This document shows, one piece after another, positions 28,995 to 58,682 of a stretch of 64,000 nucleotides of DNA. A program made the translations under genes and the position numbers. Every line of letters begins with the position of its first letter. The stretch's first letter is position 1. The stretch lies in NCBI GenBank assembly GCA_017506865.1, contig JAFCMP010000550.1, forward strand, positions 186,001 to 250,000, in the 5' to 3' direction. Source of the DNA: Tribonema minus. Its lineage: Eukaryota; Sar; Xanthophyceae; Tribonematales; Tribonemataceae. The notes beneath the pieces were generated by a model. It ran no database searches and was not told the origin of the DNA. It saw only the letters and a program-made list of their open reading frames with translations.

Positions 28995-31900
28995 CTACTT
29001 GGTGATCTTGTACTTCTTCACCAGCGCCAGCAGCTTGGCTGGCTCCCCAGAGCTGAAGTGGTCGCGCACTGGCTGGAGAATCTGTCGCAGAAGCACATGC
29101 GTGCGTACGCAGCGAGGTCAGACATCAACAACAGACCATGCTCGCAGACAGCATCCCAGAGGCCAGCGGCAGTGATGTAATTGCATATGGGAGAAACTGG
29201 CAGAGCCCAGGCATGTCACGAAAACAAAGCTGCTTAACTGCAACATTGAAGTACGTGGATGTGATGAAGGTGGTGGCCAGCGTTCAAGCGATGTGCTGGC
29301 GTGCACCCCTTTGACCTCAGAGCTTAGGGGCAGGGTGCATTGCAGCGTTGCAGAGTCAACAACGGCGCGCAATAGCACCAATGTTCTAAAAAACGTGATG
29401 ATCCGTTTTCATGTCATAGTCGCAGTAGACAGGGTACTCACGATACTTGAGGCGTGTGCTCGCAAGGGCACGTGAATGCCCATGAAAGCTTATTGGCGGC
29501 TGCGCTTATTACTTGTGTGGGGATCATCAGGGACACTGCATACTTTGAAGTATCGTCATTGCGCACGTGACCTGAACGTTCTAGACAGCAACTGCCATCC
29601 GGCTTGCTCGCGCCAATGAGGGGCGGGCATACTTGAAACATAGCCTCACCTTGTTGAGACTGGCCGTCGCTGCCGGTTTGAGATCGCTGGGGTGCAGCTT
29701 GCCGCTGACGTAGTCAGCCTCCAGCGCCTCGTAAGTGGTGTACACCTGGTCCCCGTCCTTGTAGGCGATGGTTATCTGCGGCGGCCAGGCACGCAAAGCC
29801 CACAATTGGTACACGCGGTCGCTGTGCGCATGATGCATGCGCTGATTTTACACGGGGTTGTCGCGTCCTTGCGACGCTGCACGTGGAAGCAACATGTAAA
29901 TGGGGGCGTAGATGCGCCCTCCGTGTGTTTCGTGTGTAGCGATTTTTCAGCGTTTACCAGCATCCGTCAGCGGTGTCATGGCGCGCATGCCCAGAGGCTG
30001 ACCGCAAACAACGCAGCCTTCTGCTACACAGTGTGCAGGAGCAGGCTGCACATTGTGTGCCGCGCATGGGCGGAATTGATGCGCACTGCTGTGGAGGCAT
30101 CCACCGCGTGCAGCGCGTTTCGAAGCACCCATGCTCGACTACCAGCCTCACCCAGCGTTGTAACAATGCTATCACAATAACATACTTCACGTCTAGACTT
30201 CAAGTCGCTCAGTCGCTGCATCGTTGCCTCAGAAGTCAGCGAGCGGCTGACTGAATCAGCAGCCTATCCCAGTCACAATTGGCAGCAGGGTGGCTGACAA
30301 AACCTGGTCCTCGCTTGCATGGCTTGTGAGTCTCTTGACGCAACCAGATGCTGCACGAGTGATTGCACAATGCTGAGCACTTGAAGTACGCGCAGTCACC
30401 TGTCCGAAGTATCCAGAGAGTATGTTCTTGCAGTAGCACGATGATTTGCACTTGAAGTATGCGCAGTCACCTGCCCAAAGTAGCCAAAGAGTATGTTCTT
30501 GCAGTAGTCCAGAACGGGGTTGGCGTCGACGATGCCTGGGGGGCAGTAGGCCTTCTTCACCTTGCGCGCCAGGTCCTCGGGCCTGCGGGCCCCCCGAGAT
30601 GATGCAATGGATGCGCGATGTCAGTGATCCAGGGGGGGCGGGGTGTTTCGTTGGCTATGTGACACGACTGACACGCAACGCCAGTGATCGTGGTGAAAGT
30701 GTTATCGGCATGTGTCATGTGCACATCGGCGCCGTCAGTGCACGCTCTTGCTCCCGGTGAGACGCGTGGCCATGCGACAAGTCAGCAGCGACCAGTTTGG
30801 CACCAGTGCTCAGCAGACAGACAGGCTCGGGCTCGGCATTGGGGCCCGCGCCGGGCCGCAGCGCCTGGTGATGCAGCAGCGCTCGACTAACAGCAGCTGC
30901 TGGAAGAGTTGTTGTGATATGCTGCAGAGCGGTAACTGTGGCAGGACACGCAGGCTGCGGTGGGACAGCATCGCTCGCCGCTGAATCGACCGTGACAAGC
31001 CTAGTGTTGGGGCGCGCGCCACGCCACTTGCACACATGCATGGTCGCATACAACATGTATGCTCATGCACCAGCGCTCGGCGATCGGTTGGCGACATGAT
31101 ACGGTCACTTCACAGCGGCACGTACGACAACACGCAGGCTGCTGAATCTGCATCGTTCAACGCACGTCGTGTTTCCCATGAAAATGACACCATTTCGTTC
31201 AGCAAGATCCCCCCCCCCCCCCCCCCTGTTGCGCTGACAACCCTCTGACCTGGCAGCTACGTGTAGCAGAACATGAGGACAATAAGTCTGTTTTTGTGAG
31301 CGCAAGGAGCACACGCGCCCACTCACATGTCTTCCATGAAGGTGGCGCTGGCCGGCTCGAACACTGCTCATCTTGATGTGCCCCCCCATGCTGCCCTTCA
31401 TACCAACAACAAAACGACTAGATCTTGATGTGCCCGCCCATGCTGCCCCCTCCATACACCTGCTTCCGAGTACTATTCAACAACAACAAAAAACCACTAC
31501 ACAAGTTCTGACAGCGCGCGCACGCACGCGCACCCACTCACGTGTCCTCCATGAATATGGCGCTGTCGGGGGCGCTCTTGCTCATCTTGACCACCCCCCC
31601 CATGCTGCCCCTCATACACCTGCTTCGAAACAACAAGAACGACTACACAAACACGACACGCGTGCGCACCCACTCACGTGTCCTCCATGAATATGGCGCT
31701 GTCAGGGTCGCTCTTGCTCATCTTGATCTGCCCCTCCTTGAGCCCCGCGAGCATGTGGTGGCTCAGTATGACGGGCTTGTGCTTGATCTTGGGGCGCGTC
31801 TGGTCGCAGTACTCACGCGCGAGCATGTTGACCTTGCGCTGGTCCAGCCCCAGCTGGCAGATGTCGGCCTTGAGGTAGAAGACGTCCGCGCACTGCATGC

Positions 31901-34900
31901 ACGGGTAGAACACCTGCAACCAGAGAGGAAGAAAGAGAGAGGGAGTACAAGCGTGTCATGAGCATCGGGAGGAGAGCGTAAGAGCGTTTCATGAGCTGGC
32001 AGATGTCGGCCTTGAGGTAGAAGACGTCCGCGCACTGCATGCACGGGTAGAACGCCTGCGACACACACGAAGAGAGAGAGAGCGTATGAGCGTGTTGTGA
32101 GTGTTTGGAAGCAGATGGGGGCTCATCAGAGAGAGAATGTGGAAAAGAGCGCAAGAGTGTGTCGTAAGGGTCGGGGAAGCGAATGGGGTGAGATGACAGA
32201 GAGAAAGAAAGGGAGCGTAAGAACATGTCGTGAGCGTCGGGGAGCGGCTGCGAGAGATCAGAGTTGACGAGAAGAGAGCACAAAAGCGTGTTGTGAGTGT
32301 CGGGGACACAAATGGGGGTTGATCGCGATCCTGGACTGCATGCAGCGGTAAAACCCCTGCAGCAGTGGCGACACGAAGAGGAGGCGCATCGTGAGTTACA
32401 GCAGCATTAGCAAACACAAGTTGAGGTGAAGATGTCCGCGCAGGTGAGACAGCTTCGGTGACAACTTAGGGTTAGGGTTAGGGTTAGCAAAGACAGGGCG
32501 CGTGTCGTGAGATAATGCCGGTGCCAAGCCCTGCCGTTATGAGGTGTGGTCAAAAGCGTCCGCGCACTGCCTGCACGGGTGAGAGGCCTGCAACGGCAAT
32601 GACGTGAGAACGACGGTGTCATGAAACACGGCAATGAATATCACACGGTCAGCTCAGGCGTTGGCGCAGTGTTCCGAAGCGTGACACGCCAGCTCAAGCA
32701 CACACTCTGTGTTAAAGTGCGCAGGATGGCAACCCTGAGCGCTGCTGCATTGCTGGGCGAGTCATCAAAGGGCGACCCTGAGCGCTGCTGCATTGCTGGG
32801 CGAGTCATCAAAGTTGATGTTGAAAACTACCCCCACACCACTGTGACACTTCAGCACCAGACGTGCCAGCTTGGGCGCTCAGACACTCTGTGTATGTTTT
32901 CGTGAAGATATCTAGGAATGGCCTGCAATTGACTTCCAGCCTACCTGAGATGTAGTGACCCTGTGTTCTGAGATTGGCGCTCAGCCAACCTGTGCATGGT
33001 GTCCTAGAGTTGAAGCAAACCTATGGCTAGGGTTGACATCCTGTGGAGGTTCGCCTACGTACATAGAGCTGAAACAACGCTGTGGTTAAGGGTGGCGTCG
33101 ACCGCCTGCGCCAGTTGTAGAAACCCTACTGTTACAGGTGGCCTTCAGCCCACCTGCGCACATTTCCCTAGACAAAGTCTGGACAAAGACTAGTGCTACC
33201 ACATGTCTAGTGGACATGTTCTAACCCTAAGGCTAGGGTTTACCTGAGCGCTGCTCATCTCCTCCGTCTCCGACCTCCCCATGATGGTGCAGCAGCGCTG
33301 TATGCGCGCCACCGTGGACAGCCGCGCAATCTCCATCACCCTGCCCCAGTACTCCGCCGGCGAGCGGTTGATCTCCTCGCTGCATGTCGGAGGCAGGCGC
33401 GTTGTGGGCAGGCGAAGCAAATGCTTACTTCAACTTCAAGCGAATGGTACCTCAAGTGAATGATGGTGCAGGAAATGAGTGGGCGTCGGCGCAAATGAGT
33501 GGGCGTCGGCGCAGGCGCGTTGGGGCATGCGAATGCTTGCAGGGAGACCTGAACCGTGTACTTCAACTTCAAGTGAACAGTACTTCAAAAGTGAATGATG
33601 GCATCACCCTCCCCCAGTACTCCGCCGGCGAGCGGTTGATCTCCTCGCTGCACGGGCGGAGCGCATCGGCGCAGGCGCGTTGTGGGCACACGCGTGCAGA
33701 TTGTACAGTGTACTTCAACTTCAAGTTAATGGTACTTTAAAGTGAATGGTGGCATCACCCTGCCCCAGTACGCCGCCAGCGAGCGGCTGATCTCCTTGCT
33801 GCACAGGAGCAGCGCGTCGGCGCAGGCGCGGGGTGGGCATACGAATGCTTGCAGGGAGACCTCAATAGTGTGCTTCAACTTCAAGTGAATGGTACTTCAA
33901 AGTGAATGAATGCTGCAGCATATGAGTGATAAGTGGACAGTGTACTTCATTTTCAAATCAATGGTACCTTCAAAGTGATGGCATCAGTGCAAGCCCTACA
34001 ACATGGCCGTGTGCTTCAACTTCATGTGATGGGTCCTTCAAAGCGACTAAGAGTATTAGTGCAGGCGCATTGTGAGCATGCGAATGCTTGCAAGGAGACC
34101 TGAACGGTGTACTTCAACTTCAATTGAATGATAATTCAAAGCGGATGATGGTGCACGACGTGGGTGACAGTGACACGGCGCCCGGGCCCAGTACCCTGTC
34201 AGTGCGCAGTTGATCTCGTCACTGCGCACGTAGCACATGCGCGCACGGTGTGGTACTGCTGCAGTGTGCACTAGTGTGCAAACGTTGGCTGCCCATCTCC
34301 TTCTTAAAGTTATACACTCGTAATATACTCTTAGTACTCCGCAGGTGTCCAAGCAGGCCTCAGCCTTTCAAAACACAGCCGCTACATGTCGGCATCAGCA
34401 TCACGACGCAGGCAGGCTGACAACACGCTAGGGTTTTAAGGAGAAAGCGGATGAGTGCTGTAACATGCCACCCTGCACAGGCCTCAAGCCCACTCCAAGA
34501 GAAAATTGCCAAGGCTGGCGTGACTGCCAAGGGAGACCTTGCTGTGGTGAAAAGGTTCTCAGCAGGCTGTGCCAGCAGCACTTGAAGTTTGCGAGGAGCC
34601 AAGAGCCTAACTACAGCAGAGGGCGATGATGATCAGTGATGGTGCACCGCTGATCACTGCCGCCGCTGCGTGTGTCGCATTCAGCGATGATGCACCAAAA
34701 AGCGGGCGCCAGCGAACTTTCTGCAGCACGCCTGTTTGCCTGCCCTTGCCGCGCTGTGGACATGTGCTTTGCGTGCATGCTCCGCCAATGTACACTTTCA
34801 ATTTGAGTGCTGTTTCAAGAGCCATAGCTCTGTCATGTATTCATCAACATCATTGTGTCAAACAGCACGGTGGCCATCTGTATTGCCTCAGTCTGATCTG

Positions 34901-36217
34901 CAACTGGGGGCTGCGTTCATGCTGCACTCATGTTGCACTCAATGTTGCACTCATGCTGCACTCAGGTTGCACTCATGCTGCACTCAGGTCGCACTCATGC
35001 GGCACTGATGTTGCACTCGTGCTGCACTCATGTTGCACTCATGCTGCACTCATGCTGCACTCGTGTTGCACTCATATTGTACTCATGTTGCTCACCTGGC
35101 CCACAGGAACTGCACATTCCGCATGTCCATCCCCACCGCCTTCCAGATCTCAATCATGTACTTGCCAACAACCTGGATCTTGGCCAGATCCCCCCCCATC
35201 TTGTTGTTGAGCTGCGCAAACCAGTCTGCAACCCAGAACTTGAAGTGGCACCCTGCCTGCGTCAAAAATCACAAGGACGCGGGCAAGCGCTGACGTTAGA
35301 CATGCGTGCAACACTTGACACCACTAGCAAAGGATCGCGGACAATCAGAGACAGCCAATGCACTTGGTGGATGATGAGACGTTTGACACTGTGTGAAATG
35401 CTGTGTCAGCGCGCTACAGGGGCACAGAGCATGCGCATTGCCACTACCTGCCAAAACCTTGTGTGTGCGTGGCACTCGCCTGGGAGGAGCGAGCAAAAAA
35501 CTTGTGGCGCTAGAGCACAATCCATGGAATGAGGCATGGTTCTCACCTTGGTGAGCTTGTTGACATTGAGCGCGCGCATGACACCCTGTGCGATGTGCAT
35601 GCGGCCCGAGGGCTCGAACCCATCGTACACGATGGGGTGGTCCTTGAACTCCAGCAACCGCATCAGCTCATCTTCCTGCATCGCAACAGTAGGTGAATGG
35701 CGATGTCAGACAGATCCGGAGAGGCAGGACAGCCCTGACATAAAAAATATTGTCAGTGCCTAGTATCGAGTACCCATACAAATCCGGACTTGAAAACTCC
35801 GGACATCCAAACTCTCTTTCACCTGTATGCACTCTTCTGCAACGCTGCGGCACAAGTCGAATCGTTCTTGTAGGGATAGCTCTGACTTGACGAGGTTGCT
35901 GGGGTCGAACGGCGGGGCCTGCAGCAATGAGGGGAGAAGTTGAAGTATGGGTTGGTGTGATGATCTCATGCGACCCACGTGATCAGACGGCATAGCAGCG
36001 CACGCAGCTGGCGCGCAAATGACCTCACTCCTATGGTGGAATCAGCAGCCGGCGCTGGCCCCTTCGCCGAGGCAGCGCTCGCCGAGGACTTGGCTCCAGC
36101 CACCGCTGGCTGTGAGGTGCCTGCTATGTCGAGCACCGAAAACTTGCTGGTGGGATTCACGACGAAGCGAGACTTTGCACTGTCGCTGCCGCCATCTCCT
36201 TTTGCTTTCTTAGCCAT
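28995..36217 (-). CDS. TyrRS: Tyrosyl-tRNA synthetase, eukaryotic/archaeal type, 9 exons, 423 aa
   Basis: Exons: 36217-36029, 35918-35823, 35675-35547, 35256-35096, 33379-33244, 31913-31678, 30582-30471, 29775-29650, 29081-28995; phases agree (424 codons with stop). It charges tRNA-Tyr with tyrosine using ATP. The class I signatures are present: a HIGH-type motif in EPSGRMHIAQG (116-126) and KMSKS at 301-305 followed by DPDSAIFMED. The family-typical YPCMQCADVFYLKADICQLG lies at about 240-259, and ILSHHMLAGLKEGQ precedes KMSKS. The first about 60 residues are an Ala/Ser/Lys-rich extension without a clear presequence, so a cytosolic enzyme is likely. The C-terminal tyrosyl-specific tail ends KKYKITK. 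There is no EMAPII-like domain. Introns 4-7 contain several duplicated exon edges. The start ATG is 114 bases from the start of the divergent lipoyl-like gene. Confidence 0.95.
30395..30445 (-). repeat. Duplicated end of TyrRS exon 7 with donor
   Basis: On the minus strand, CTACTGCAAGAACATACTCT, then CTGGATACTTCGGACAG|gtgactgcgc, is a near copy of the last about 45 bases of exon 7 and its donor (30471). It lies about 70 bases downstream of the true donor. Both copies are followed by TACTTCAAGTGC. The donor is intact, so a second 5' splice site is available. Confidence 0.88.
31325..31680 (-). repeat. Two extra copies of the TyrRS exon 6 end (KMSKS region)
   Basis: The end of exon 6, with ATCAAGATGAGCAAGAG and ATATTCATGGAGGACAC|gtgagtggg, recurs at about 31541-31600 and, more diverged, at about 31328-31395. 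Both extra copies keep a gtgagt donor, and the following GCGCGTGCGTG-like spacer is also repeated. The period is about 140-210 bases. The 31541 copy still reads MSKSAPDSAIFMED in frame. Confidence 0.88.
31985..32600 (-). repeat. Upstream copies of the TyrRS exon 6 start
   Basis: A nearly perfect copy of the first about 65 bases of exon 6 lies at about 31995-32058, behind its own tcgcag acceptor, encoding AFYPCMQCADVFYLKADICQ. Shorter, decayed copies lie near 32333-32358, 32428-32440 and 32548-32590 (each with GCATGCAGT or TGCGCGGAC remnants). Spacers are pyrimidine-rich and share GTGTTGTGAGTGTCGG-like words. Confidence 0.88.
32466..32488 (+). repeat. Short interstitial telomere-like repeat
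   Basis: Three to four TTAGGG units in TyrRS intron 5. Confidence 0.8.
32733..32812 (+). repeat. 43-base perfect tandem duplication
   Basis: The block beginning CCCTGAGCGCTGCTGC and ending GGGCGAGTCATCAAAG occurs twice, separated by GGCGA. The copies are identical over about 38 bases, which indicates recent origin. It contains the TGAGCGCTGCTGC word that recurs elsewhere in the window. Confidence 0.9.
33590..34235 (-). repeat. Three upstream copies of the TyrRS exon 5 acceptor and start
   Basis: On the minus strand, the exon 5 start (gcag|CGAGGAGATCAACCGCTCGC, then GGCGGAGTACTGGGGCAGGG) recurs near 33613-33652, 33755-33800 and, most diverged, 34175-34225. Each is preceded by an AG. The spacer units, with GAATGCTTGCAGGGAGACCT and TACTTCAACTTCAAGT, are repeated too, so the whole unit of about 160-240 bases was copied. 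Confidence 0.88.
34916..35095 (+). repeat. 12-base minisatellite next to the TyrRS exon 4 donor
   Basis: About fourteen units of TGCACTCATGCT with variants (TGTTGCACTCA, CAGGTCGCACTC) run directly into the donor of exon 4. The array forms an open frame on the + strand (repeated MLHSCCTHAA) that is an artefact of the repeat. Confidence 0.9.
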
Positions 36218-36331
36218 GGCGGAAGTTTGTCTGGAGAAAAGCTTACACGATTAAAAAAAGATCTAAGATCGTTCCCTGATAATTGGGGGGTCGACATTCT
36301 AGTTCGGCGAGGGTCGAGGACGAGGGAGAGC
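36218..36331. promoter_or_regulatory. Bidirectional promoter region, TyrRS / lipoyl-like gene
   Basis: Only 114 bases separate the divergent ATG codons at 36217 (-) and 36332 (+). It holds an AT-richer core (GATTAAAAAAAGATC near 36249) and GTTCGGCGAGGGTCGAGG next to the + start. Both 5' leaders must be very short. Confidence 0.5.
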
Positions 36332-38355
36332 ATGGCGGCCAGCAGCAGCTTTCTCAGGTTGGCTCAATGCCGGCAGTTTGCAGCAATCGCTCACAGCACT
36401 AGCGGCGGCAGGAGAAGCGTGCACCTCTGCCGCACGCTGCTGTCGAGCGCCAGTGACAGCAAGCCAGACGGGAGCGATTCACAAGCCAGCACCAAAAGCC
36501 ACTGGTATATTAAAATGCCAAGCATATCAGAGGTAAGCATCGCATGCGTCCGTCAGGCCATCAGTTTGTGTGGACTACTTCCGACAACCTCGAACTGCAA
36601 CTGCAATCCTTGAAGTGCATGATGTTGAGAGACGCGACCAAACATGTGCCATCATTGACCATGACTCTGACAGCAAGATTTGTGATGCTGCCCTCCTCTT
36701 GCAGCAAGAAAAGTTTGGCAAGGTGGCGAAATGGAAAAAGCAGGAGGGGGACAAGGTCAAAACAGGCGACCAGCTGTGCGAGATAGAGTTCACAAACTTC
36801 AGCATCAATTTGAACATGGAGGAGGACTCGTATGTGGCACAGATCATGGTTCCGGCTGGCGATGGGGAGGTGCCTGTGGGGTCGCCGCTCTGCGCGCTGG
36901 TGGAGAAACAGGTGCGACTGGTGGAGCTGTGTCATGGCGCATGCTTGATGGATCTCAGAAGTCGGCATGTGTTTTGACATTTGCTCAGTGGTCAACCGCC
37001 ATCTAATGGCCAGAGCGCTGCATATCTACATGCCACATCTCCCGACGGCTGTATGGCTGCCTGAGTCACCAGCATGCAACACTCACCCAAAGATCAATTG
37101 ACTTCCAGTGATCTGGTGTCCGCACTTCAGTTGCGCTGTACATGAGTCTTTGAGCCACAGTATGCAGCGATCACATTTGCGGCTACAAGACACCTTGTGA
37201 ACTTCCGCTGGGCCGCTGCTGTCTTCTCATCATTGGATAGTTGTGCTGCCTCTCTGTCCTACTGGTGTTCAAATCAACGCCGCTGCTACGCTAACGCCGC
37301 TCCGGCACTGACACTGCAGGAGGACATAGGGCCGTTCAGAGCGGCACACGCGCCGCAAGCTAACAAAAAGGACTTTGGGTTCACCCAGAAGGATATCATG
37401 ACCACGATCAACCACATGCTGAAGGCAGCGCAAATAGACGAAGGTGCGAACACGGCTGCTGCAACCGCCTCACGGCCATCATTGAGTGTCCGCTGTGAGC
37501 GAGCTCGGCGCACGCAATCCGCTTGCCATCGTGCATACAGGGTGTGCACACAAAGGGCGGCCATTGATGCATGCATGGGTGCCTTGCGTGTGCATCTCTC
37601 TGAACTGTCTGGAGACAATGCTCCCTGCTGCTGGGGGCTTCTACCTTGTTGTACTGGTGCCATGCGTACACCGGTCACAGCCTGACGTGAACGGTTGAAT
37701 CTGCTGAGCAGTGAATCACGCATTTAACCTCTGTATGCACCTATACTGCCGGTTCGTCACACCTGTCAACAGCCCTCGGTGGCGATGATGCAGCACCGGT
37801 CCTGAGCTCCTGCGTCTGGTACTGTGACGTGTCTTGGTGCTGAGCACGACTGAGGCTTCGCCTTGCGCTTTTAGACACACCTTCATCACGCGAAGTTGAA
37901 GACCTGTCGAGCAGCCTCGGCGCGCTCGGTGCAACACAAAGATCTGGAAACCCCTCATGGTGACTGTGAGGGCAAAGCACTGACTTTGAAGGGCCCCCAC
38001 CGGGCTGAACGCATCCCTTCGGTGACATACATACATAGCTTGTGCTGCTGAGCACTGATTGTCATCCGTCTTGTTATTTACGCCCTTGTTGCTGCCATGA
38101 TCATCAGAGCTCGCGGGCCAGCTCCTGTCGCTGGCGCGGCACGAAAATCTGGAGCTGTACGAGGCCTTCAACGGCTCCTTCGAGGGGAAGGAGTTCAGCG
38201 AGCAGGGCCTGGAGGGATTGGACACGTCGTTCTTCCTGCTGCAGGCAAAGGACATTGTGAAGACAACGCTCGCGCCCGCTCAACAAGAGAGCAAGCCCGC
38301 AGCGGAACAAAACAAGCCCGCACCGGAACAAAGCAAGCCCGCAGCGGAGCCATGA
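36332..38355 (+). CDS. Mitochondrial lipoyl-domain-like protein lacking the lipoyl lysine, 259 aa
   Basis: Exons: 36332-36532, 36705-36911, 37320-37443, 38108-38355; phases agree (260 codons with stop). The N-terminus (MAASSSFLRLAQCRQFAAIA, Arg/Ser-rich, no acidic residues) looks like a mitochondrial presequence. Residues 58-136 match the lipoyl domain of 2-oxoacid dehydrogenase E2 proteins: YIKMPSISE, then KVAKWKKQEGDKVKTGDQLC, EIE, and EDSYVAQIMVPAGDGEVPVG. The canonical ETDKA turn is replaced by EFTNF, so Asn98 stands where the lipoylated Lys should be. No subunit-binding domain and no catalytic HxxxDG domain follow. Instead there is a helical region (about 137-235) and a tail of repeated EQ(N/S)KPA units. 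It could be a structural E2/E3BP relative or an unrelated user of the fold. The function is not known. Confidence 0.8.
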
Positions 38356-39324
38356 TGCGGCAGCGACGGCGGCATGCACGGCGGCCGTGTATGTGTATAC
38401 AGGTTCAGTGGCACGCGTGTCTGTAAATGGAGTCCGCGCATTTGCTAGTCGCGTGTCTCTCCTCAGTGCTGCTGCTGACATTGTGTGCAGTTCTCTAAAC
38501 GAACGACTCAGACTGCCTGGCATTGCAGGCCATGAGACGCATCTGACAGCTCATCAGATGTATTTACACCAAAGCAAGTTTCTTTTTTGTCTTGCCCGAT
38601 CCATCGCACCTGCATCCCGGACTTCCAAATAGAAGTATTCACGTTGATGGTCAGCAGTGGAGCGATCTGGAAGTTCAAGGAATGGCAATGACAGCTTTCT
38701 CACGTGTTGCCATTGGGGATGGAGCAGATTGTCACCCCCGATGTCGAGTGCACCTGTCATCTGGCATGATTTTGCAGTATGCAGGGTCATGCATCGCCTA
38801 CAATGCAATGGTTTTCATGCTGCGTCGGTGCACGACAACTCTTGTCTGTGAAAGAAACATCTGTGAGGGGAGTAGATGAATTGATAACACGAGTTCGGAC
38901 GGTTAGAGGCTTGCTTGTGCAGCAACCTCCACCTTGACGGCCAAGTCACCGCAACCTGAATTACCTTCATGTCAAAATTCCGATGCCTGCTTCAGGAGCA
39001 TTACTTGCGGGTCACGCGCATGGCAAGTTGCTGGGGTTGTGTAGTCATATGCTCTGGCCATGTGCAGCACATGATGCATAACGCAGAACATCTCTATACT
39101 GCGTGGACACAAGCTCTGGCCATCTGCAGCACATGATACATAACGCACAACACCTCTGTACATAAACCAGGAGTACATCACCAAGGTTCACAATAGGATG
39201 CGGAGTCGATTCATCACAAGGAAGTGCCGTATGCGCACAGTGCTCACACCAGATGCACCAGCAATGAAGCAGTAGCGCAAAGCGAGACATGTTGGTCCTC
39301 GTGAAAGAGTGACTATGATTGAAA
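38356..39324. other. Convergent intergenic region, no gene seen
   Basis: It lies between two convergent stop codons. Short open frames are present but none is protein-like. A duplicated segment (GCTCTGGCCATGTGCAGCAC at 39050 and GCTCTGGCCATCTGCAGCAC at 39112, each followed by ATGAT(G/A)CATAACGCA) forms a 60-base tandem pair. Confidence 0.5.
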
Positions 39325-39981
39325 CTAGTGTCTGTCAAAGCGTCGGTCTCTCGGTGCTGAAGCAGGCTCACCACTTGACCTGTGCTTGTACGTGGTGTCA
39401 GCTGTGTCATCGCCAATGCCATAGCCCGTGAAAGTGCTGATCACCGGGCGCAGCAGCCACGGCGGCATGAAGCTGGACGGACTTCTGTCTCGCGTTACTG
39501 TTCCCCGAAACATGCGAGGCTGGGTGCCGAAAATGTTCCAGTGCAGCTCCGCCCTATAATGCGTAGCCGTGGCACTGGGCTCCTTGAGCTCCCAATGCAG
39601 ACCGCCGACATCGAACCACCACCTGCCGTCTGCCTTCCCGGGGCTCTCTACTGTGCCGTCTTTGTGAAATGTGAAGTACTCGTCCTCCCTCTTGAACCCC
39701 AGCAGCTTGCGAGTTGACATGCGCCACTCTGCGGTTCGAAGCGGGTGAGGTGCGTCCTCATCCTCCTCCATCACTTCGGCTTCGTCATCCAGCAGGTCGA
39801 CATGGAACAGTACATCGCCATCGTTGTGCTCCTGTGCGGCTGCATGGCGATAGGCCAGCTGCCGCGGTCGCGTGATCGCACGCAGCCCTCGCCGAGCTGT
39901 CCTGGCTGCTGCTGATGTGCGCGCTCCTAGCAACGCTGCGAACCAATACAGAGCTGCCAGCCATGCAGCAGCTTTGACCAT
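39325..39981 (-). CDS. Conserved-looking protein with signal-type N-terminus, 218 aa, single exon
   Basis: I do not recognise a named family. The ATG at 39981 is followed by a hydrophobic segment (AAAWLAALYWFAALLGARTS) and then a basic stretch (AARTARRGLRAITRPRQ) free of acidic residues. This suggests a signal peptide plus a possible plastid transit region, though without Phe at the junction. The mature part has an acidic patch (DDEAEVMEEDEDA) and a compact, Trp/Phe/Gly-rich domain with beta-strand character (EDEYFTFHKDGTV, GRWWFDVGGLHWELKE, RMFRGTVTRDR). An upstream TTG could extend the frame to 40017, but the ATG start places the hydrophobic segment correctly. The gene is intronless and divergent from the giant gene. 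Confidence 0.75.
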   Translation of the reverse strand: MVKAAAWLAALYWFAALLGARTSAAARTARRGLRAITRPRQLAYRHAAAQEHNDGDVLFHVDLLDDEAEVMEEDEDAPHPLRTAEWRMSTRKLLGFKREDEYFTFHKDGTVESPGKADGRWWFDVGGLHWELKEPSATATHYRAELHWNIFGTQPRMFRGTVTRDRSPSSFMPPWLLRPVISTFTGYGIGDDTADTTYKHRSSGEPASAPRDRRFDRH

Positions 39982-40275: not shown

Positions 40276-43200
40276 ATGACGGCACCCATGGATCACTACG
40301 GCGCTGCACCTTCCAGCTCTTCGGCGCTGATGATCCTAGGTGAGCACCGATGACACATGCTGCGAACCAGCTCGGCACTCGCAGTACTGGTCGAGCACCA
40401 TCGAGAACCCCATCGCCATGCTGTTGCACTGTCTGTACTTCAGATGTGGAGGAGAGCTTCCATTCCAAGTGCTATGAGCTCACTGACAGGAGCTTCATGA
40501 GGGACTTCAGGCATGCGAGCCGTGTGATGCGCTGTGCCTCGCAAATCGGCAAGGTGAGGCAGCCGGCAACCTCAACTTCGGGCATGGCAACTGCTGCAGT
40601 TTTACGGCGCAGCGAGAGGCCTTTGAGCATCAGTAGGGCTAATGAATAGATGTGCGCATCTGTGCGCGTGCCAGCTATGTATGACCTCGGTCTGTGCATC
40701 ATGAATAATGCTGAACGTGCGCGACAAGACGGCGGCACAACAGCAACTGGATCTCGACCACAGTGCTAGGCACACACAACAGCACACGGCCGACGACCAC
40801 GCTGGTCCTGTACTGCCTGAGACATTGAGTATTGTGCCAGCGATGGCTCTCCGACTCCATAGAGAGAGCAAGGCAGCGGTTTCCCGTCCGTTGCCCGGAT
40901 GCAGCGAGGCGGCCTCGCTTGACACGCGCGGCGACGGCGCCGTCACGCGCGGCGACGGCGCCGTTATGCGCTCACCCTGTGGTCAATGTCCATCGGCAGA
41001 TGCTATAATTGTAATTTTAGAATATGTGCTGAATGAGCGTTGGCGCTCATGTAATCTGAGAATGCGATGCGGCTTTATTCGCTGTACACGCAGGCAGCAC
41101 CTCTCGAGTGGTGCACGTAATGGCGGTGCCGCAGCATTCCCCAGCTCGGCGCGCCCGTCGCTGCGCCGCGGTCCTGCACGCTGAGCGCTGCTGCATGCAC
41201 GTCATTGCGCCACACCGACTTCATTTACGCAAGCGCGCGCCGCCGCGACTGATCTTCCTTTACTCAACACTCTTTAGCTTTTCAGTTGTACGCCTGTTGA
41301 GGTTGTACACCTGTTGAGGTGTTGCAAAATCATGATATGTTCCACTTCGAGGTCCATGGAACGCATGCACATGTCATTCGCTGCTTCTGCGGCGGCAGAT
41401 GTGGCGCGGCTACGTCCACAGGCAGCGCTTCCTGACGTGGCGCGCGCGGCGGCGCCAGCGCAGGGCGCTCTTCTTCCGCGCGTGGCGCGCCGCCGTCCTC
41501 GCGGACCGCCTGCACGCGCGCTTCATACTGCGCAAGTACTGGAGCCTGCTCAAGGAGGCCCTCGAGGACAGGCAGCGCATGGAGAAGGTGCTGCGCGCTG
41601 CGGTGGAGGCGACGGCGGGGCGTCACAAGTTGACGTTCGCCGCGGTGAACCTGTTCTTCCGCGAGCTGGAGCGGACCGAGGCGCACGGCGCGCGGAAGGA
41701 GCAGGTGAGCTCGTGTTGAACTTCAACTTAAGTGTAGTTGAAGCGAAGCATATCAGCCAGGGTGCGCATGCGGGGTGCATCCGAAATCGGTGTCTACCAC
41801 AGCAGGCCATGTGCTGTGCGGCAGCGGGGACGGGACCGAGGCAAATGATGCCAATGTGCTAAATCAAGTGTCTCAAATCATACTGCAGCACCGTGGTTGA
41901 ATGCATTGACTTGTCGTACAAAAGGACATGCCGCGCCATCAATTCATTTGGCAGCCTGTCATTTGGCGGCGAGCTCTAATACAGTCATGGCGCGTCAGAA
42001 CGCAGCAGCAGCGCTCCACTGCAGCAACGCTCGCCAGAAAGCTCCGCCAGGTCCGCTGCCTAACCGCGATGTGTTGAACCCACACTACTTGAAGTATATG
42101 TGCTGGTGACGCACCTGGGCGGCCGCCTGCGTCTCCCCCCACCCCCCATGCAGCCAGATCCCTACATCCAATGCGTTGATTGCCGCATACGACAGTCACT
42201 GCTGACTCTGACTGGCCAGCCGATCAACCACTCCCAACTGCACCAGTCAGTGCCCTGAACGCAGCGCGCCCGCCGCCTGCATTCCCCTCACCCCCCATGT
42301 ACTTGGTCAGAGCCCCGAATGCAGTGCGCCGAGTGCCAGATGTCGCACGCACTACTGATGCCAACTGGCCAGCCAATAAACCACTCTCAAGTCATGAGAT
42401 TGGAGTAAAATCCGGTCATGACCAAATACGGCGGGTGCAAAAGAGCAGCACCGACAAAAACCTTTCCTTTTGTCGCAGCAGTCAGCGCCCTGAACACATC
42501 GCGCCCGCCGCCTCACCACCCTTGCAGCCAGACCCCTGAATGCAGTGCGTTGAGTGCTACATGCGATAGGCGCTGCTGACGCTGACTGGCGAGCTGATTG
42601 AGCTCTGTCAGGCTCGTCCCGTTGCAGTCGGTGCCCTGAACGCAGCGCGCCCGCCGCCGCCCCCCCCCCCGCCCGCGCCGCCGCCGCAGGTGCTGCTGAC
42701 GCACGTCGGCACGGGCAGGCGCATCCTGCGGGTGCTCGTAGACGGCTGGAAGGCGCGCGTGCACGCCGCTGTTGTGAATTTGGAGTCAATTCTGGTCGTT
42801 ACCAAATACGGCGGGTGCAAAAACAGCATCGGGCACTGAACGCAGCGCGCCTGCCACGTGTCCGCCCCCCCCGCCCGCGCCGCCGCCGCAGGTGCTGCTG
42901 ACGCACGTCGGCACGCGCAGGCGCATCCTGCGCGTGCTCGTGGACGGCTGGAAGGCGTGCGTGCACGCCGCGCGGCAGCGGCGCTCAACAGCGGCAGCGC
43001 TCGTCCTGCGCGTCACGCGCGAACTTCAACACGCCTCGCGCATGGTCGCGTGGTCCCTCGAGCTGCTGCTCGTGGGGTTCCACATGTGGCGGCGCATGGC
43101 GGCGTTCACGGCGGCGCTGCGGCTGGGGCGTGAGTTGCCCAACTTTGGCAAAACGGTAGGTATTGGAAACCTGTGTCCCAGGGGAGAGGAGGGGTAATGC

Positions 43201-46200
43201 CTGGTGTGGAGCAGTTTCTGAACACTTTGGTCGTATGTGGCAGTACTTCAAGTGTTGAGTAGTGCGGGACCGGAGTTCGCGCTCAGTTTACTTGAGCATT
43301 GCAGGATGTTGCAGTACTTCAAGTGTTGAGAGTGCAGGACCGAACTGGTCCTTGTCTCAACTTGAAACCTGTCGATTTATAGATGTGCATGGGGGTGTCG
43401 GTGTCAGCGGCACCTCAAACAAAAGCACGCGCTGACACAAGCATGTTGAAGTCTTCAGTTTCGAACATCAAACTTGAAGTGCATGCGGGCACGCTGCCTA
43501 CCTCACGCTGAACACAGCGCGTGTTCAAGTGGAAGACCTCAATAACATAAGAGTTGAAGCGCACGTGAGCGCGCTCACGCAGAGAAAACTGCCACTAATG
43601 CGCGTTGCGCTGCGCTGCGCCTCGCGCGCCCCCCAGCCACCCTGCGCCAAGAAGCGGGACAAGTGGGCCGCGACGACGGTTGAAGCGCACGTAAGCACGC
43701 TCGCACTGAGAAAATCGCAACTGGCGTATGCCGCCATGCGCTGCGCTCGTGCTGAAAACAATGCAACTTACGCGTGTTGTGATCTGCTGCCCTCGTACGC
43801 CCCCAGCCGCCCTGCGCCAAGAAGTGGGACAAGTGGGCCGCGACGACGGGGCGGCGCCTGCAGCGCAAGCACGCCATCAACGTCAAGGGCGGCCAGATCT
43901 TCCTGCGCAACAAGTTCCGGCGCTGGGCGGTGTACGTGCGCTGGTGCCGCGCGCGCGGGCAGCGCATGAGCGCCGCCTACGAGTACAGCCGCGCGCGCGT
44001 CAAGGTGCGTGCGAGCCATGGGGTAGGGAGGTATTAAGGTGCGTAGCGATGGGGGTAGGCAGGTATTAAGGTGCGTAGCGCGCGCGGGCAGCGCATGAGC
44101 GCTGCCTACGAGTACAGCCGCGCGCGCGTCAAGGTGCGTAACTGTGGGGGTAGCAGGTATTGAAGCGCATGAGCGCTGCCTACGACTACAGCCGCGCGCG
44201 CGTCAAGGTGCGTGCGTAGCCATGGGGGTAGGTAGGTATTAAGGTGCGTAGCGCGCGCGGGCAGCGCATGAGCGCCGCCTACGAGTACAGCCGCACGCGC
44301 GTCAAGGTGCGTAGTCATGGGGATACGCAGGTATCGAGGTGCGTAGCAAAAGGGGTAGGCAGTTTGGCTAGGGTTTGGCTGGTAGTTCAGCTAAAGTTTG
44401 GCTGGACCTCGGCGCTATGTGACTGCGGGCGTGCGCACATTGCGAGGCCAGAAGGGGCAAGTAGGCAGTTTTTGGGGGGTCGATGCTACTGTACTTAGGG
44501 TTAGGGTTAGGCTGGTGCGCTGCAGCCCCTTGAATGACCATGCGTTTCGGGCATGGGCACCTGTTACAATGGCGGCAGGGTTGGCACAAGGGCGGGGAGT
44601 AAGGCGTGCGATGCGGCCGCGCGTACATCTGTGTGCGTGGCGAGGGGTTCAGGAGGCGTACAGGCAATATTGACCATGCGCTAGCAAGGAGACTGCAGCA
44701 TGTCAAACACGCCAGGTGCTCAGAGCATCTGTACATGGTGCAGAGCGTTGTCTCAACTTGTCCGCAGTGCGCTGGTCCATTGGCGTGCGAGCGGTGCAGC
44801 AGTGCTTCGTCGCCAATCATGACAAGCACGCGTGCATCGAGGCGGGGCTTGCGGTTATGTTAAGAGGTTTGACCATGGCACGCTTTGCAAAGTGCTATCT
44901 GGCAGTCGACTGTAATGTGGCAGTGCTCCACCTTCTGGGTAGTTTTAGGGTTAGGGCTACGTCGCTTGCCGGGCAGGTCCAGAGTGCCACCTCGTGAACT
45001 GGTGGGGAGCATTTACATGCGCGGGTGTTCGCATCACCGTCAATGCGCACGTAACCTCTCACCGGTGGCCCTAACGCTAGCCCGAGCCGTAGCTCCAATC
45101 CCAGCCTGAACCCTAGCACCACTCCTGGCCCTAATTTTGATACGATCCCTAACCCTACCCCCACCCTAGCTCTAAACCTGGCCCCAAGCCTAGCCTACTC
45201 CTAGCCCTGGTCCTGATGTTTTGCGTGCGCGCCCCGTGCCACTACCGCAGCGCGTCCTGAAAGGCTGGCACTGGACTGCTGTAAAGCATGCTCATGCGCA
45301 AATATTCGTGTCGAAAGTGATGCGCACGTGACGCCCAACCCGTAGCCTCGTCCCTAGCCTAGTTCTGACCCTGTCCCTGACCCTAGCCTGAGCCTGAGCG
45401 CCGCTCCTACGTAGCCCCAACCCTAGCCCCAACCCCCCTACATCACCCCCCCCTGGATGTAACCTGACCCCACGGAACGGGTGGTCGCACCTCCGCAGCG
45501 GCGCGTGTTTGAAGGCTGGCACAAGGCCTGCCGCACCAAGCCCTAACCCTAATCCTAGCCGTATCCTAATCCTAGCCCTATCCTAATCCTAGCCCTAATC
45601 GTAACCCTTACCCTAGCTCTCACCCTAGACCTAACCAAGGCTCTGGCCCTAACCCTAATCTTGACGCCCCGCGCGCGCGCGCGCGCGCCTCGCACCACGC
45701 CGCAGCGGCGCGTTCTCAAAGGCTGGCACAACACCTGCCGCACCAAGGGGCAGATGCAGCGCGTGGTGCAGCGCTGCTTCGCCGCGTGGCGCCGCTGGGC
45801 GCCGCTGCATCAGCGCTCAGCCGCCGCCAAGGCAGCGGTGCTCGACCACGTGCGCGCCCTGCGCTCCGAGCGCGCGCTGCTGGCGATGCACCGGCTCGCG
45901 AGCGACGCGCACGCGCGGGACCAGGCGGCGGCGGCGCGCATTCTCGATGCCCCCATCTTCCACGTCGTTGCCCAGGTATGTAGGTACTGTGATGTGATGT
46001 GATGTCATGTGATATACTTGTAGGTGGCGGCGGCGCGCACCCTTGATGCTCCCATTGTCCACGTGGTGGCCCAAGTTGTGTAAATAGCATAGGGGGTATA
46101 GTTGTGATGTACTTGTAGGCGGCGGCGGCGGCGCGCATCCTCGACGCCCCCATCTTCCACGTGGTTGCGCAGGTATGTAAGTAGTATCATGTCTTGTCTT

Positions 46201-49200
46201 TTACTTGTAAGTGGCGGCGGGCGCAAATTCTCGGCGCCAGGTGTATGAGTAGCTTAGGTGGTATAGTGTGATATACTTATTGGTGGCGGCGGCGCGCATC
46301 ATCGGACACCCCCATCGCCCACGTGGTTGCCCAGGTATGTAGGTACTGTAATGTGATGGAAGTATACTTGTAGGTGGCGGTGGTGCGAATTCTCAATGTC
46401 CCCATCGTCCATGTGGCTGCCCAGATATGCAAGTAACATGGTGCGCTTTACTTCCAGATGGAAGTGTGATTTACTGGCAGGTGGCGGCGGCGCGCATTTT
46501 TTGACGCCCCCCATCTTCCACGTGGTGGCCCATGTGCGTGGTAGGTAGTAGAGCGTGATATTATCGTAGGTGGTGGCGAGAAGCATTCTAGATGCCCTCA
46601 TCGTCCATGCGGAGGCCCAGGTGTACAAGTAGCACAGGTGGTATAGTGTGATATACTTGTAGGCGGCATTGACGTCTCAATCTTCGACGTGGTGGCCCGG
46701 GAATGTAACTAGTATAGGATTGATATGCTACTTGTTGGCGGCGGGCGCATTCTTACATCATGCGCATCATTTTTGTGTTCCCCCAGGTATGCGGATAGCA
46801 TGGTGTTGTGTAACTTCAGAGTACTTCACAGTCTGCAATGCTGTACAGCAAAAGCCAAGCCGCACCGCGCGCACTGCCACGCTCAGGCTGCGCTGGTGGT
46901 CCATGTACCTGCGCTCGAATGTCAACAGCGTGTACACAGCACCGTAACCCTAACCCTAACCCTAACCCTAAGCGCAGCCTGTACACAGCGCCGTAAACCT
47001 AACCCTAACCCTAACCCTAACCCTAAGCGCATGTTGAAAACCCGTTGTTCAACAATGGACAGGCCCTGCCTGATTACATGCGTGCTGCGGAGCACTTTGT
47101 TGTGTGACTCTCTTTCAACAGGCGTGCTTCGCCATGTACAGCGACATGGACAGGCTCTGCTTGATCACATGCTGACTGCTGAGCACTGATGTTGCGGTGG
47201 TGACTCTCCTGTTCCTCAGGCGTGCTTCGCCATGTACAGCGATACGGACAGGCTGTGCGCGTTCACGTGCTGGCAGGCGTGGCGGCGCACTGCGGTGCAG
47301 CGGCGCCGCTGGAAGTGGCTGCAGTACGAGCAGCGTCGCGTGGCGGGCATGCACCTCTGCCGCACCGTCTTGAGGGCATGGTACGTGCTGCGTGCGCACA
47401 TGTCTTACTGTCTTGAAAGCCTGGGCTTTGTGGGACATGGGCATGTTCTGCGTGCCGCACCGTCTTAGAGCATGGTGTACTCATTAAGGTCGTGATTATA
47501 TGCACCAATGCCGCACCGTCCTGAGGTCCATACTGGTATGTTCTGTAAGGATACATACTTTTTGAAGTGTATTATAGTCACTTTGGGCTGAGTTTAGAAC
47601 AAGGGTTACGGTTATAATGAGGTTAGGGTTAGGGTTGGCGTAAGCCTGCCGTGTTTGGCATGCATTATCGCGTCTGCCACACCGCATCAGAGCACGGTAT
47701 ATCCTTCATACACAACTACATTCGTACTTCTTGTTAATTCTCGCTGAGGGCGCGACAGAAGCCCAGATGAATGGCATCCAACTTGTACACCTCTGTCACA
47801 CAGCCGCAAGAGCATGGCATGCTCTGTGAGTGTACATGCACGAATGTCTGCCGCGCGTCGTCAACAGTGCTACGCCCTGTGCCTCACCAGTTGCCATGGT
47901 ACAAGGACCCCAGACAGACAGGCCATGCAAACCACTCGCCCACAACAACCATCCGTGCGCACATACATACCCATACTTGCGCTGCTGATCACTCGCCGCT
48001 CCCGCCATGTTCACTTGCAAATACATACAGGTACTTTGCCACCGGCCAACGCCCATTTCAAGTCGTCAATGGCACGCTCACCGCGAGCGCAGGGACCCCG
48101 GCCCTACTGGCTGCCATCCCCTTCGGGACCCTGGACAAGCTGTGCACAGTGCTCGGCCACGGCGTTCTCCCGACCAAGCAGCTGAAACGTGACATGTCTT
48201 CTGGCGGTGTCATGGCTCAGGAGACGTCCAAGTGGCTGCTGGGGCAGCCCATCTGGGACGCAGACGGAGAGTGAGTAAAAACGAGTTATAGTGAGCAAAA
48301 ACGAGTAATCGTGCGGTATCGACTCATGCGTTGCGCGCTGCTCATATGACTATTGAGCGCTGCTGTACATGCACAGCTGAGCGCGCTGATGCCTGATGCC
48401 TGTGCTCCACCGCTGGCGCAGGTTCATGACCCCCGCCGCCACCAGCAGCAGTGCTCCACAGGACAAGGCCGGCAAGGTGCAGCAGCCGCTAGCCGGCAAG
48501 CGCGCCTCACCAGCAGCGCTCGCCCACGGCACCACTGCTCCGCGACCGCCGCTGGCGACGCTCTGCAGCAGCAGCAGCAGCAGCGCAGGCAGGGGCGCCG
48601 CTCCGCAATCAGCGGCAAAGCCCGCCAGCAGCGGCGGCAGCAGCGGCAGCAGCAGCAGCGCTCAGCACGAGCTGCTGCTCGCCGCGGAGCTGTTTGCGGC
48701 GGCGGACGCGTGCGACACGGCGCGCGTGCGCGAGCTGCTGTGCGCGGGCGCCGAGGTCAACGCCGTCTGGCTGCCGAGCATGGCTGCGGCGGCGGCGGCG
48801 GGCGCCGATGAAACTTCAACTTCAACAGGCGGCAACGCCGAGTTGACTGAGGCTGGCAGCGGAGGCGACGGCGCACGCGGCTGGGCGGCCGAAGCGCAGC
48901 ACCAGCCGCTGCGCGTTACGCATGCGGATGGCGTGCAGGTGAGGGTTCGTGGCGGCGATGCTCAGCAGCATAGTTGAAGTGTATCTGTATATTTGAAGTA
49001 TTGCGCTCGCCGACATGTTTGATCAGGACCGCCCATGGCATCACTTGGTCGTAACATGAACTGTGCTGACTCAGTGCAGCAGAGGCCACAAACATTCAAC
49101 GCACAAGTGCCGATGTCAACGGCTAGACAGGCTGCCCAATCGGCAGCAAAGCACCACGGATTTGAGGATTCCTGGGTGGGTGGGATTGCAGCATGAGCAT

Positions 49201-52200
49201 GCTTGGAGTGCCGCTGCGTGTGTGCACGACTCAGTGCATTATCAGGCGACTCGCCCCAAAGACTTGGCCTCGTTGTGCATCAGCAGCGAGTTCCTCCGGG
49301 GGCATATGTGGGACCCTCACCAATCACTATGTATGTAGGCATGACCCCCAACCCCCCCCGCCCCTCACCCATCTCCTCCCCCCCCCCCCCCCCCCCTCAC
49401 ACCATTTTCTCCCCCCCCCCCGCCACAGGCAGTGCGCGGCACCACCCCCCTGCACCTGGCCGCCTCCCACTTCAGCCCCGCGTACGCGGGCGTGGTGGTG
49501 CTGCTGCTGCACTGCGGCGCCAGCGCGGCAGCGCTTGACAGGCGCGGGCGGACCCCCCTGGACGTCGCCACGAACCCCGTTACGGTGGCGCTGCTCAGCG
49601 CGCACGAGTCGCGACTCGCGGCAGCGCGCTACACGCGGCGCGAGCTCGCGTGGGGGCTGGCGGCGGTTACTGAGCACTGGGGAGGGTGCGGCGGGCGCGG
49701 CATGTGGCGCTACGTCGTGTACAGGTGGGGCCATTATGGTGTTGCGTGTTTAAGTAGCATGCAGCTTCGGGACGTGACTGACCATTGTGTGGTGCGTTAT
49801 CAGCAAGCTTCAGAATGTTGGTGACATAAGAAGCCGTCGCCGAGCACTGGTGTGGCTGCGGCATGTGGCGCTACGTCGTGTACCGGCGGGGCCCTGGTGT
49901 TAACAGCGTGGTTCAGGAAGCTTTTTGACTCTGGGTGGCGTCACTGGGGTGGCGTCACTGAGCACTGGGGCGGCTGTGGCGGGCGCTGGCTGTGGTGCTA
50001 CGTCGTGTACACGAAGGCGATGAGGGTTCGTTAACAGCATGTTTCAGAAATTGGCTAGTCTGAGCGGCAGGCACGCAAAACTTGGGCAGCAGTGGCGGCC
50101 TCAGCATGTGCCGCTACATAATGTACAGTTAGGTGTTGACAGTATGCTTCAGGAAGGTGATGACTGCAGGCGGTGTCGACTGAGCACTGGGGCGACTGCG
50201 CCGAACGCTGCGCTTAACGTACAAGTAGAGCTGAAACGGCACGCCTTCAAGTCTCTGTGCAGCAGCGCCGTTCAGCTGCTGCTGCCACTGCGTCAGCAGG
50301 CCATCGCGCCACACCGCCACACAGGGCTCACATGGGCTGCCGAGTGAGGCCTTGTGTCCAGAGCGTTCAAACAATACATCGACCTCAAATCCTTGATTAA
50401 TTTGCCACCACAACACACCACGCAGGGCGGTGGGCCAAAAGCTGGCGGGCGTCGCGGCGCAGCTGGCGCCGGCGGCGCGCCCCGCGCAGCAGCAGCAGCA
50501 GCAGCAGCAGCAGCGGCAGCAGCAGTGCACATCGAGCAGGCAGGCGGAGGCAGCGAGCCGCATGCGGCTGGTGCTGCAGCTAGAAAGGCTCAGTGCCGCA
50601 CAGGCGCGCCTGGAGGGGGTGGAGGAGGGGGCTGGCGACGGTCACGCGGGGGACCTGCACAGGTGAGCCCCTAACCCTAGCTGGATCCCAGAGCCCCAAG
50701 CCTAGGGTTTGGGACTCATGAATGTGGAGCTTGAGCTCCTGAGCGCTGCTGCAGAGGCGGATCAGACTGCGGTACACACAATCTACTCACATTGTGGAAG
50801 GATGTTGGCGGTGATGTATGCAGTGGCAGTCGCAGCAGCTGCACGCACCAGCCGCTGGCACGTGCTTGCAGAGGTTGATGTAACACATTTTAATTTCAAT
50901 GGCGTTTCTGTGAAGCTGCAGCGTCCCATGCTTGCACACATGTTCTGTCGCAGCGGCAGCAGCGGATGGGGGGCAGCCTGTAGGTGTGTGCGCATGGGGC
51001 AATCAGAAGTCCAACTCTAAGTCTGAGTCTCACTCAAATTTCAAGGTGTACTGATTGCCCTTGCTCTAAGCCCCGCACACCCAAACTATGCATTGACAAC
51101 CTCCGAGGTCTGCAAACACTGCAATGCTTGCGGCACAAGCTTTCCGCACCACTCCCTTCCGCCCTGCGACTGAAGCCCTAACCCTAATATTGGTGTCCGC
51201 GGTAGTGACCAAGTACATTCAGCAAGGCCGTGTAGTGCGTCTCCGCTTAGGGTTAGGGTTAGGGTATGTATGCCCCCCACTCCGCGTGTACTCTACATCA
51301 TTGGTTACATCGTCAAACTCAACTCACTTGTTAATAGTTAAAGTACTTCTATTGAACTTGACAGTGCTGAACGCCGTCCATTCGTACCAACCCCGGCCGC
51401 CCCCGTTCTCAGGCTCGCAGGCCAGCTGCAGCGCTACGGGCGCGCGCAGATGTACCGCCGCGGCGGCGGCGGGCGCGCGGAGGGCGCGGAGAACCACGCC
51501 GCAACGCGGCGGCAGCGCGCGCGCGCCGGCAGCTGGTGGCAGCGCTCCACCTGCAGCAGCAGCAGCGGCAGCAGCAGCGGCGCTCCGCAGCAGCACACAC
51601 AGATCAGCGGCATCACCGTGCGCGCGTCCGCGGCAGCGGCGGAGCCATGCGCCGACGGCGGCAGCGGCGGCGGCGGTGGCGGCGGCGGCGGCGGCGGCGA
51701 TGGCGGCACGCGGGACGCGGTCGTGGAGGTGCTGCCGCAGCTGCCGAGCCGGCGGCGGCGCGGCGTGGCGGCGGCGCTGCGCGGGCGCTACGACCTGGTG
51801 GTCCTGGACGCGGCGCGGCTGGCGCTGGCGACGTGGACGCGCGGCGCCGCCGTGCAGGAGATGGCGGCGCTGCGGCGCGTGCCGCGCGCGTGGTGCGCGA
51901 CGGACGCCGGCGGCGGCGTCGGCGCGCGCCTGCGCGACGAGCTGCGGCGCGCGGGTGCGCGGCGCACCGCGCTGCTGCTCGCGGCGTCCGACCTCGCGGC
52001 GCGCTACGCGGCGGTGGCGGCGCGCCTCGACGGCGTGCAGCGCGCGGAGCGTGACGCCGCGCTCGGCGCGCGCGCGCTCGCCGCCGCGTCGCGCCGCGAG
52101 GAGGCGCTCCTCGGCGACGCCGTCGCGGCGCTGGAGCGCGATGCGCGCGGCGCGGAGGCCGCGGCGGCGGCGCTCGACGCCAAGCGCGCGCGCCTCGCGC

Positions 52201-55740: not shown

Positions 55741-55771
<31 letters not shown>

Positions 55772-58647: not shown

Positions 58648-58682
<35 letters not shown>

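Follow-up and report, generated by a model that had tools for sequence, protein, structure and literature searches.

Are the degenerate exon edges found inside introns of a yellow-green alga peculiar to a few genes, or do they record a process that lengthens introns across its genome? The question is raised by 64,000 nt of the stramenopile Tribonema minus (contig JAFCMP010000550.1, positions 186,001 to 250,000; the window below), from a genome of 158.18 Mb in 554 contigs. A preliminary description of the window had claimed that exons of a tyrosine--tRNA ligase (TyrRS) gene and of a giant gene are each flanked by one to ten copies of their own edge, on the intron side and always including the splice site. 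We find that the exon-edge copy pattern is real and is not limited to the window. Frequent short-range tandem duplication, of which the exon edges are the recognisable part, probably lengthens the introns.

Each exon edge (up to 150 nt) was aligned with the adjacent intron, taken to at most 1000 bp, with 20 introns of other genes and with that adjacent intron in reverse complement. The sample held 162 introns and 324 exon edges in 22 sequences: the window, fixed-position loci (bases 20001-30000, taken from roughly one contig in 30, not a truly random choice; 13 of the 16 stretches were used) and CCT loci picked from a table of PF00118-type matches. Introns shorter than 100 bp and introns beside exons shorter than 45 nt were excluded. 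At a score of at least 26, 53 of the 324 edges matched their own intron, as against 0/6480 for other genes' introns and 1/324 for the reverse complement; at the looser score of 22 the counts were 66/324, 14/6480 and 8/324. The claim thus survived a test by shuffled exon-intron pairing in this sample. The matches at the stricter score were spread over the window (14/84 edges), the fixed-position loci (16/142) and the CCT loci (23/98). At least one edge copy was present in 12 of 42 window introns, in 12 of 71 fixed-position introns (6 of 13 loci, five of the 12 introns being in locus L015) and in 18 of 49 CCT introns (5 of 8 loci), the CCT rates being biased upward because loci L024-L027 were chosen partly for visible partial copies. 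A later, small replicate on two stretches gave 1/14 edges and 1/7 introns, with 0/280 for other genes and 0/14 for the reverse complement. The copies recur across the genome, on at least 10 contigs, and are not confined to one. Self-alignment of the window (E<=1e-6) returned 45 non-self pairs, 42 of them direct with gaps below 500 bp and 3 inverted. At offsets of no more than 600 bp, direct repeats were found in 14 of 17 sequences (the window and the 16 stretches) and in none of the Markov-shuffled versions, one for each sequence.

Within the window, the gene model of TyrRS is certain; it was obtained by spliced alignment of the Tribonema minus protein (P0001; 423 of 423 residues identical), to which a TyrRS protein read from the window had matched at 99% identity. 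The gene lies on the minus strand at 28998..36217 and has nine exons, 36217-36029, 35918-35823, 35675-35547, 35256-35096, 33379-33244, 31913-31678, 30582-30471, 29775-29650 and 29081-28998. Exons 5, 6 and 7 are, as described, edged by their own copies on the same strand. The start of exon 5 has two copies within 33602..33796, at 33602-33647 (98%) and 33753-33796 (93%), parts of both of which our gene finder took as extra exons. The start of exon 6 has a copy at 31994..32053, in which 60 of 60 aligned exon bases are identical, and a second, weak one at 32545..32584 (85%, score 24.5); its end has two within 31328..31611, at 31542-31611 (88%) and 31328-31396 (81%). The end of exon 7 is followed in the next intron by a single 37-nt copy (30400..30436), a pure tandem repeat with a period of 71 bp; the corresponding self-alignment pair, 30365-30436 and 30436-30507, is 87.5% identical. 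In the edge test, exons 1-4, 8 and 9 had no edge copies. A 111-base probe of the exon 6 start, used in a genome search that skips very common words, matched itself and the copy at 31994..32053 only.

The giant gene (36816..59044, plus strand) is an ab initio model with 24 exons once decoys are removed. We took exons 4, 5, 6, 7 and 10 of the preliminary description as 42892-43155, 43807-44004, 45706-45975, 47220-47391 and 49429-49724 of this model, and copies, again on the gene's own strand, were found at all five. The starts of the first four have one copy each, at 42690..42769 (80 nt, 95%), 43637..43700 (68 nt, 89%), 45499..45540 (42 nt, 86%) and 47122..47207 (91 nt, 80%), respectively. The exon end at 44004 has three copies in 44036..44306 (85-94%), that at 45975 has six in 46022..46620 (52-54 nt of exon each, 74-92%, in steps of 87-162 bp) and that at 49724 has three in 49833..50128 (71-88%). 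A 69-base probe of the 45975 end found itself and three copies there and nothing elsewhere in the same kind of genome search. The largest number of copies detected at one edge was 6 within the window and 7 outside it, instead of ten. For two further genes that had been said to show the same pattern, the support is weak and consists of few matches of 76-81%: in the EF-hand gene region, a match at 20029-20077 (76%), another of 48 nt for exon 16723-16910 (81%) and the pair 17808-17915/17986-18095 at 78%; in the acidic gene region, the pair 63623-63685/63731-63798 at 80%.

The polarity of the copies was examined with 60-nt probes. Those from exon starts had a match upstream in 22/98 introns and downstream in 0/98, those from exon ends had one downstream in 22/98 and upstream in 0/98, and those from exon middles gave 1/57 and 1/57. 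This bears out the claim that copies of exon ends lie past donors and copies of exon starts before acceptors. An earlier, looser test of 453 exon sides (score at least 28) yielded 78 direct best matches, namely 54 edges of the right polarity, 3 of the wrong one, 14 whole-exon and 7 inner matches; the reverse strand gave 10. The polarity follows from geometry, because a tandem duplication across an edge leaves the complete exon at the first copy (donor) or the last (acceptor), and a mechanism linked to splicing is unneeded. In all, we counted 116 copies at 57 edges, up to 7 per edge, with a median identity of 88%. Inclusion of the splice site is the rule, albeit not invariably: 103 copies, at 50 edges, lie within 4 nt of the junction and the other 13 do not. 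Per edge, the median exon overhang is 56.5 nt (interquartile range (IQR) 46-70 nt) and the smallest step has a median of 141 bp. Residue-level alignments of 14 pairs showed contiguous units, with the exon edge of the copy leading directly into the next intron unit; this was clear in several pairs, and for 3 or 4 the alignment fell out of register. One instance is CCT-theta, where a stretch of 47 identical exon bases passes straight into the next intron unit at a period of 140 bp. The aligned units thus show direct, tandem duplication across the splice site.

How could such units lengthen introns while the gene continues to work? Under the explanation we favour, short stretches of DNA would be duplicated in tandem, with periods mostly about 70-260 bp. 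A duplicated stretch spanning a junction would give exon, junction and intron piece, then a second exon edge, junction and intron piece. The gene would still function because the outermost real donor and acceptor remain joined to a complete exon, and the inner copy would become part of a longer intron. Duplications of coding sequence would seldom be retained, with selection as the presumed reason for the small number of exon-internal copies. The copy would drift afterwards and repeated rounds would build arrays, in which exon-edge pairs should stay recognisable longer than intron-only pairs because selection holds the original half constant. Duplication may be continuing today. As the cause, we would favour repair of staggered breaks over replication slippage or unequal exchange, although either of the latter probably adds to the growth of arrays once they exist. 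At 15 junctions, some of them contaminated by further copies, microhomology averaged 1.27 matching bases as against 0.31 in the control. The proposed lengthening agrees with intron size: introns with copies have a median of 845 bp, those without 487 bp, bearing in mind that longer introns also offer more room for a match. A route of intron gain through duplicated AGGT-containing segments, which the preliminary description had mentioned, is not supported: the units contain junctions that already existed, and it is existing introns that are enlarged.

Does duplication seek out exon-intron boundaries, or are these simply where it can be recognised? Since the conserved exon half aids detection, we masked the exons, searched non-coding sequence only (word size 9) and simulated uniform placement 1000 times. 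The 64 independent pairs comprised 40 intron-internal, 16 abutting an exon and 8 intergenic, although the classes are impure in that some internal pairs sit inside edge-copy arrays; uniform placement predicts 32.1 +- 4.0, 10.7 +- 3.0 and 19.1 +- 3.6. The abutting fraction of intronic pairs, 16/56 or 0.29, is close to the expected 0.25 +- 0.07 (299 of 1000 simulations were as high), and the claim that boundaries are preferentially duplicated is not upheld, with a mild preference still compatible with 56 pairs. A number of results, on placement here and on divergence below, nevertheless weigh against our explanation. Without masking there were 85 independent pairs: 32 at edges, 34 confined to introns, 6 intergenic, 11 with one copy in an exon and 2 wholly exonic. 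Simulation of the first three classes gave 19.1, 43.6 and 22.3, so that the 32 edge events, a count that excludes the 11 pairs with one copy wholly in an exon, exceed the 19.1 +- 3.7 expected (maximum 29 in 500 simulations). We attribute this excess to slower decay of pairs with a constrained exon half. The exon overhang is also narrower than a uniform distribution (IQR 46-70 nt, Kolmogorov-Smirnov p=4e-4), which is partly an effect of detection. Finally, intergenic duplications are fewer than expected in the masked search (8 vs 19.1 +- 3.6), and therefore the process is not uniform over non-coding DNA. Duplication density is 0.43 per kb in introns and 0.13 in intergenic DNA (about threefold, the intergenic class depending on the gene finder), which could point to transcription-linked duplication. 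These placement results can also be read as duplication targeted to the boundaries, for example through nucleosome phasing, transcription-linked nicking or the junction sequence, with a preferred copied segment of about 50-60 nt of exon and 80-100 nt of intron. The clustering of overhangs at 46-70 nt for donor and acceptor edges alike, the unmasked excess and the masked abutting count (16 vs 10.7) all favour such targeting. The masked intron-internal count, however, is likewise high, both being raised because the intergenic ones are fewer; the abutting fraction is as expected; and short overhangs go undetected, which itself narrows their distribution. We regard targeting as improbable, if the most credible of the alternatives.

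Divergence within the copies bears on the other alternatives. In the 97 copies, out of 103, that lie in the 24 of 42 genes with an unambiguous frame, mismatch to the exon at codon positions 1, 2 and 3 was 11.4, 9.9 and 19.2%, and 92 of 95 indels shifted the frame, a count to which forced equal-length segments may have added. Coding constraint on the copies is thus rejected, and the codon pattern is that expected from the exon itself changing at silent sites. Substitutions in the intron-derived part amount to 21.6%, about twice the value at codon positions 1-2, in line with drift of both halves. Divergence from the exon is overdispersed (chi-squared per degree of freedom 2.4), and copy ages therefore differ. 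On the opposing side stands, besides the possible artefact in the indel count, the finding that unrelated intron pieces align at 30.9% substitutions; the 21.6% is compressed for this reason, and coincidence may account for part of the twofold ratio. Copies moreover differ from one another by 16.3% in exon-derived and 22.3% in intron-derived parts, and the latter hold about 3 times more gaps. Neutral copies should lack such a difference, which may stem from the copies having been found by their similarity to the exon and from aligning intron pieces of poor homology. Furthermore, the copies most similar to the exon (mean 2.4%, n=15) have intron parts 20% diverged, like the others, and divergence of the two parts is uncorrelated (rho 0.13, p 0.21). 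Both observations would be accounted for if the arrays were old and gene conversion templated by the real exon had maintained the similarity of their exon-like parts. Divergence between copies (16.3%) is nonetheless greater than between copy and exon (11.7%), which fits independent drift, and we hold conversion to be unlikely, slightly more so than targeting. The smaller divergence of exon-derived parts could instead mean that copies are retained through use as alternative donors, acceptors or cassette exons, in keeping with the 43 copies that the gene finder predicted as exons and with splice dinucleotides that are mostly intact where the alignment comes within 1 nt of the junction (donor GT 42/49, acceptor AG 38/42). 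A control dinucleotide, however, is as intact as GT (43/49); AG is nominally above its control (31/42); nearly all indels shift the frame; and the NCBI proteins of TyrRS and CCT-theta include none of the copies. Such use is, in our judgement, very unlikely to explain their retention. No systematic disarming of the copied splice sites is apparent, and AG may be mildly retained. We found no point in favour of an assembly artefact or of dispersed intronic elements (introners, transposons). The copies are diverged (median identity 88%) and present on at least 10 contigs, both probes matched their own locus only and other genes' introns gave no match in 6480 comparisons, so either origin can be practically dismissed.

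The introns carry two other kinds of repeated sequence. The motif ACTTCAA/TTGAAGT (hexamer-like AACTTC/GAAGTT) occurs throughout them, for example at 33420-34150 of the window; counted on both strands, its density is 1.49 per kb in introns, 0.58 in intergenic DNA and 0.25 in exons. AACTTCAA is about 50 times more frequent in introns than base composition predicts, and slightly denser in copy-bearing introns (1.67 vs 1.36 per kb). Runs of at least two TTAGGG/CCCTAA units number 32 in 25 sequences, 17 of them in the window (including 9530-9564, 17281-17337, 32466-32483, 45541-45658 and 46948-47026) and 15 over 8 other stretches. TTAGGG hexamers have densities of 0.96 per kb in introns, 0.53 in intergenic DNA and 0.05 in exons, and they too are slightly denser where an intron bears copies (1.16 vs 0.90 per kb). 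Interstitial TTAGGG runs of primates and rodents are attributed to break repair in passages of two papers (PMC2246262, PMC7215372), and their frequency in the same introns as the copies is a suggestive hint of break repair here. A bolder proposal would be that break repair in transcribed non-coding DNA constantly makes 60-250 bp tandem duplications, perhaps the TTAGGG runs too, as the main engine of intron lengthening; introns would then be largely the layered remains of their own exon edges, and the spliceosome would routinely pick the outermost of many near-perfect sites. We put this forward tentatively and think it rather less probable than its opposite. If true, such a choice of the outermost site would imply exon definition in a stramenopile.

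The gene models on which these counts depend came from a small two-strand gene hidden Markov model (HMM) that took TyrRS and the CCT matches as seeds and was then retrained with the very sequences under analysis. It recovered the nine TyrRS exons, including the last with its stop codon, plus several copies as extra exons; because of the seeding and retraining this recovery is not independent. Most Pfam-supported CCT exons were covered, two in locus L029 being missed. Of 317 predicted exons, 43 partially copied a neighbouring exon and were discarded as decoys before any count, and the TyrRS and CCT-theta predictions were replaced by models built on NCBI proteins. CCT-theta (P0121) has 8 exons in locus L026, where 542 residues match the protein, its first 14 residues being uncovered. 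Protein-level HMM tables also reveal partial exon copies, some in PF00118 and two pairs in PF00225; none were seen in PF00063, such tables being too insensitive for counting. For the giant-gene protein (first 1478 residues given, residues 1-760 scored) there was no match at E<=1e-20, and in a Pfam search of both strands of 36001-45000 the sole match was Biotin_lipoyl at about 36.7-36.9 kb, near the start of that gene. Rfam and ARAGORN gave no match in the window, and 8 kb of it had no near match among phage records. Three stretches were left out of the gene analyses: L019 (402 bases); L017 (C270:20001-27015), of 14.7% guanine plus cytosine, with direct and inverted repeats and possibly organellar; and L018 (C300:20001-23065), from a small contig and made up mostly of direct or inverted repeats, local direct repeats covering 78%.

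Intron growth without transposons is hard to watch, for insertions into introns drift until they can no longer be recognised. Many of those seen here can be dated because coding selection keeps one half of each pair constant. How fast introns lengthen, what becomes of duplicated splice sites and how the spliceosome chooses among nearby copies thereby become measurable in one species. The copies are also a hazard for annotation, as the decoys predicted by a simple gene finder demonstrate.

Which known systems does this pattern resemble? In tandem exon duplication with mutually exclusive splicing, an exon and its splice sites are repeated in tandem. Exon sequence with splice sites is tandemly repeated here as well, but most copies are partial edges that have a single splice site, are frame-shifted and are in decay. 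With only 14 whole-exon matches in 78, against 54 single edges, tandem exon duplication is rejected for most copies and possible for a minority; mutually exclusive exons are rejected since the reading frame is not kept. Introner elements were rejected likewise, there being no dispersal among unrelated introns in the 6480 comparisons. The work of Zhuo et al. (2007), to judge by its title, links human introns to tandem arrays and concerns how introns originate, while here existing introns swell.

A source of short tandem duplications has been proposed for humans and plants in the repair of double-strand breaks that arise from nearby nicks, with a role for CST-Pol alpha-primase fill-in (passages of PMC8355091). 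Our copies are similarly short, direct, adjacent and scattered over the genome, and the window pairs have the direct, adjacent, short form of duplications made by end-joining repair (42 of 45 direct, gaps below 500 bp). They differ from those described in that source in reaching 7 copies per edge, with periods mostly about 100-200 bp. Among the literature matches listed, in the portions consulted, no such pattern was described for Tribonema or another alga, which is not proof of absence. Tandem duplication of segments bearing splice signals is described inside genes for ATP2A1 (Hellsten 2011) and potato RdRp (PMC4974935), and passages of the potato paper include an 83-bp tandem duplication within an intron that left gene structure unchanged; the latter is a lone example of the event seen here. 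Our system shares with the intron gain described for ATP2A1 and potato RdRp the tandem duplication of a segment with splice signals, in a model that originally keeps the protein unchanged. Unlike in those accounts, existing junctions are copied here, existing introns grow and many introns are affected. It is this extent, roughly one in six introns of the fixed-position loci, that is new to us.

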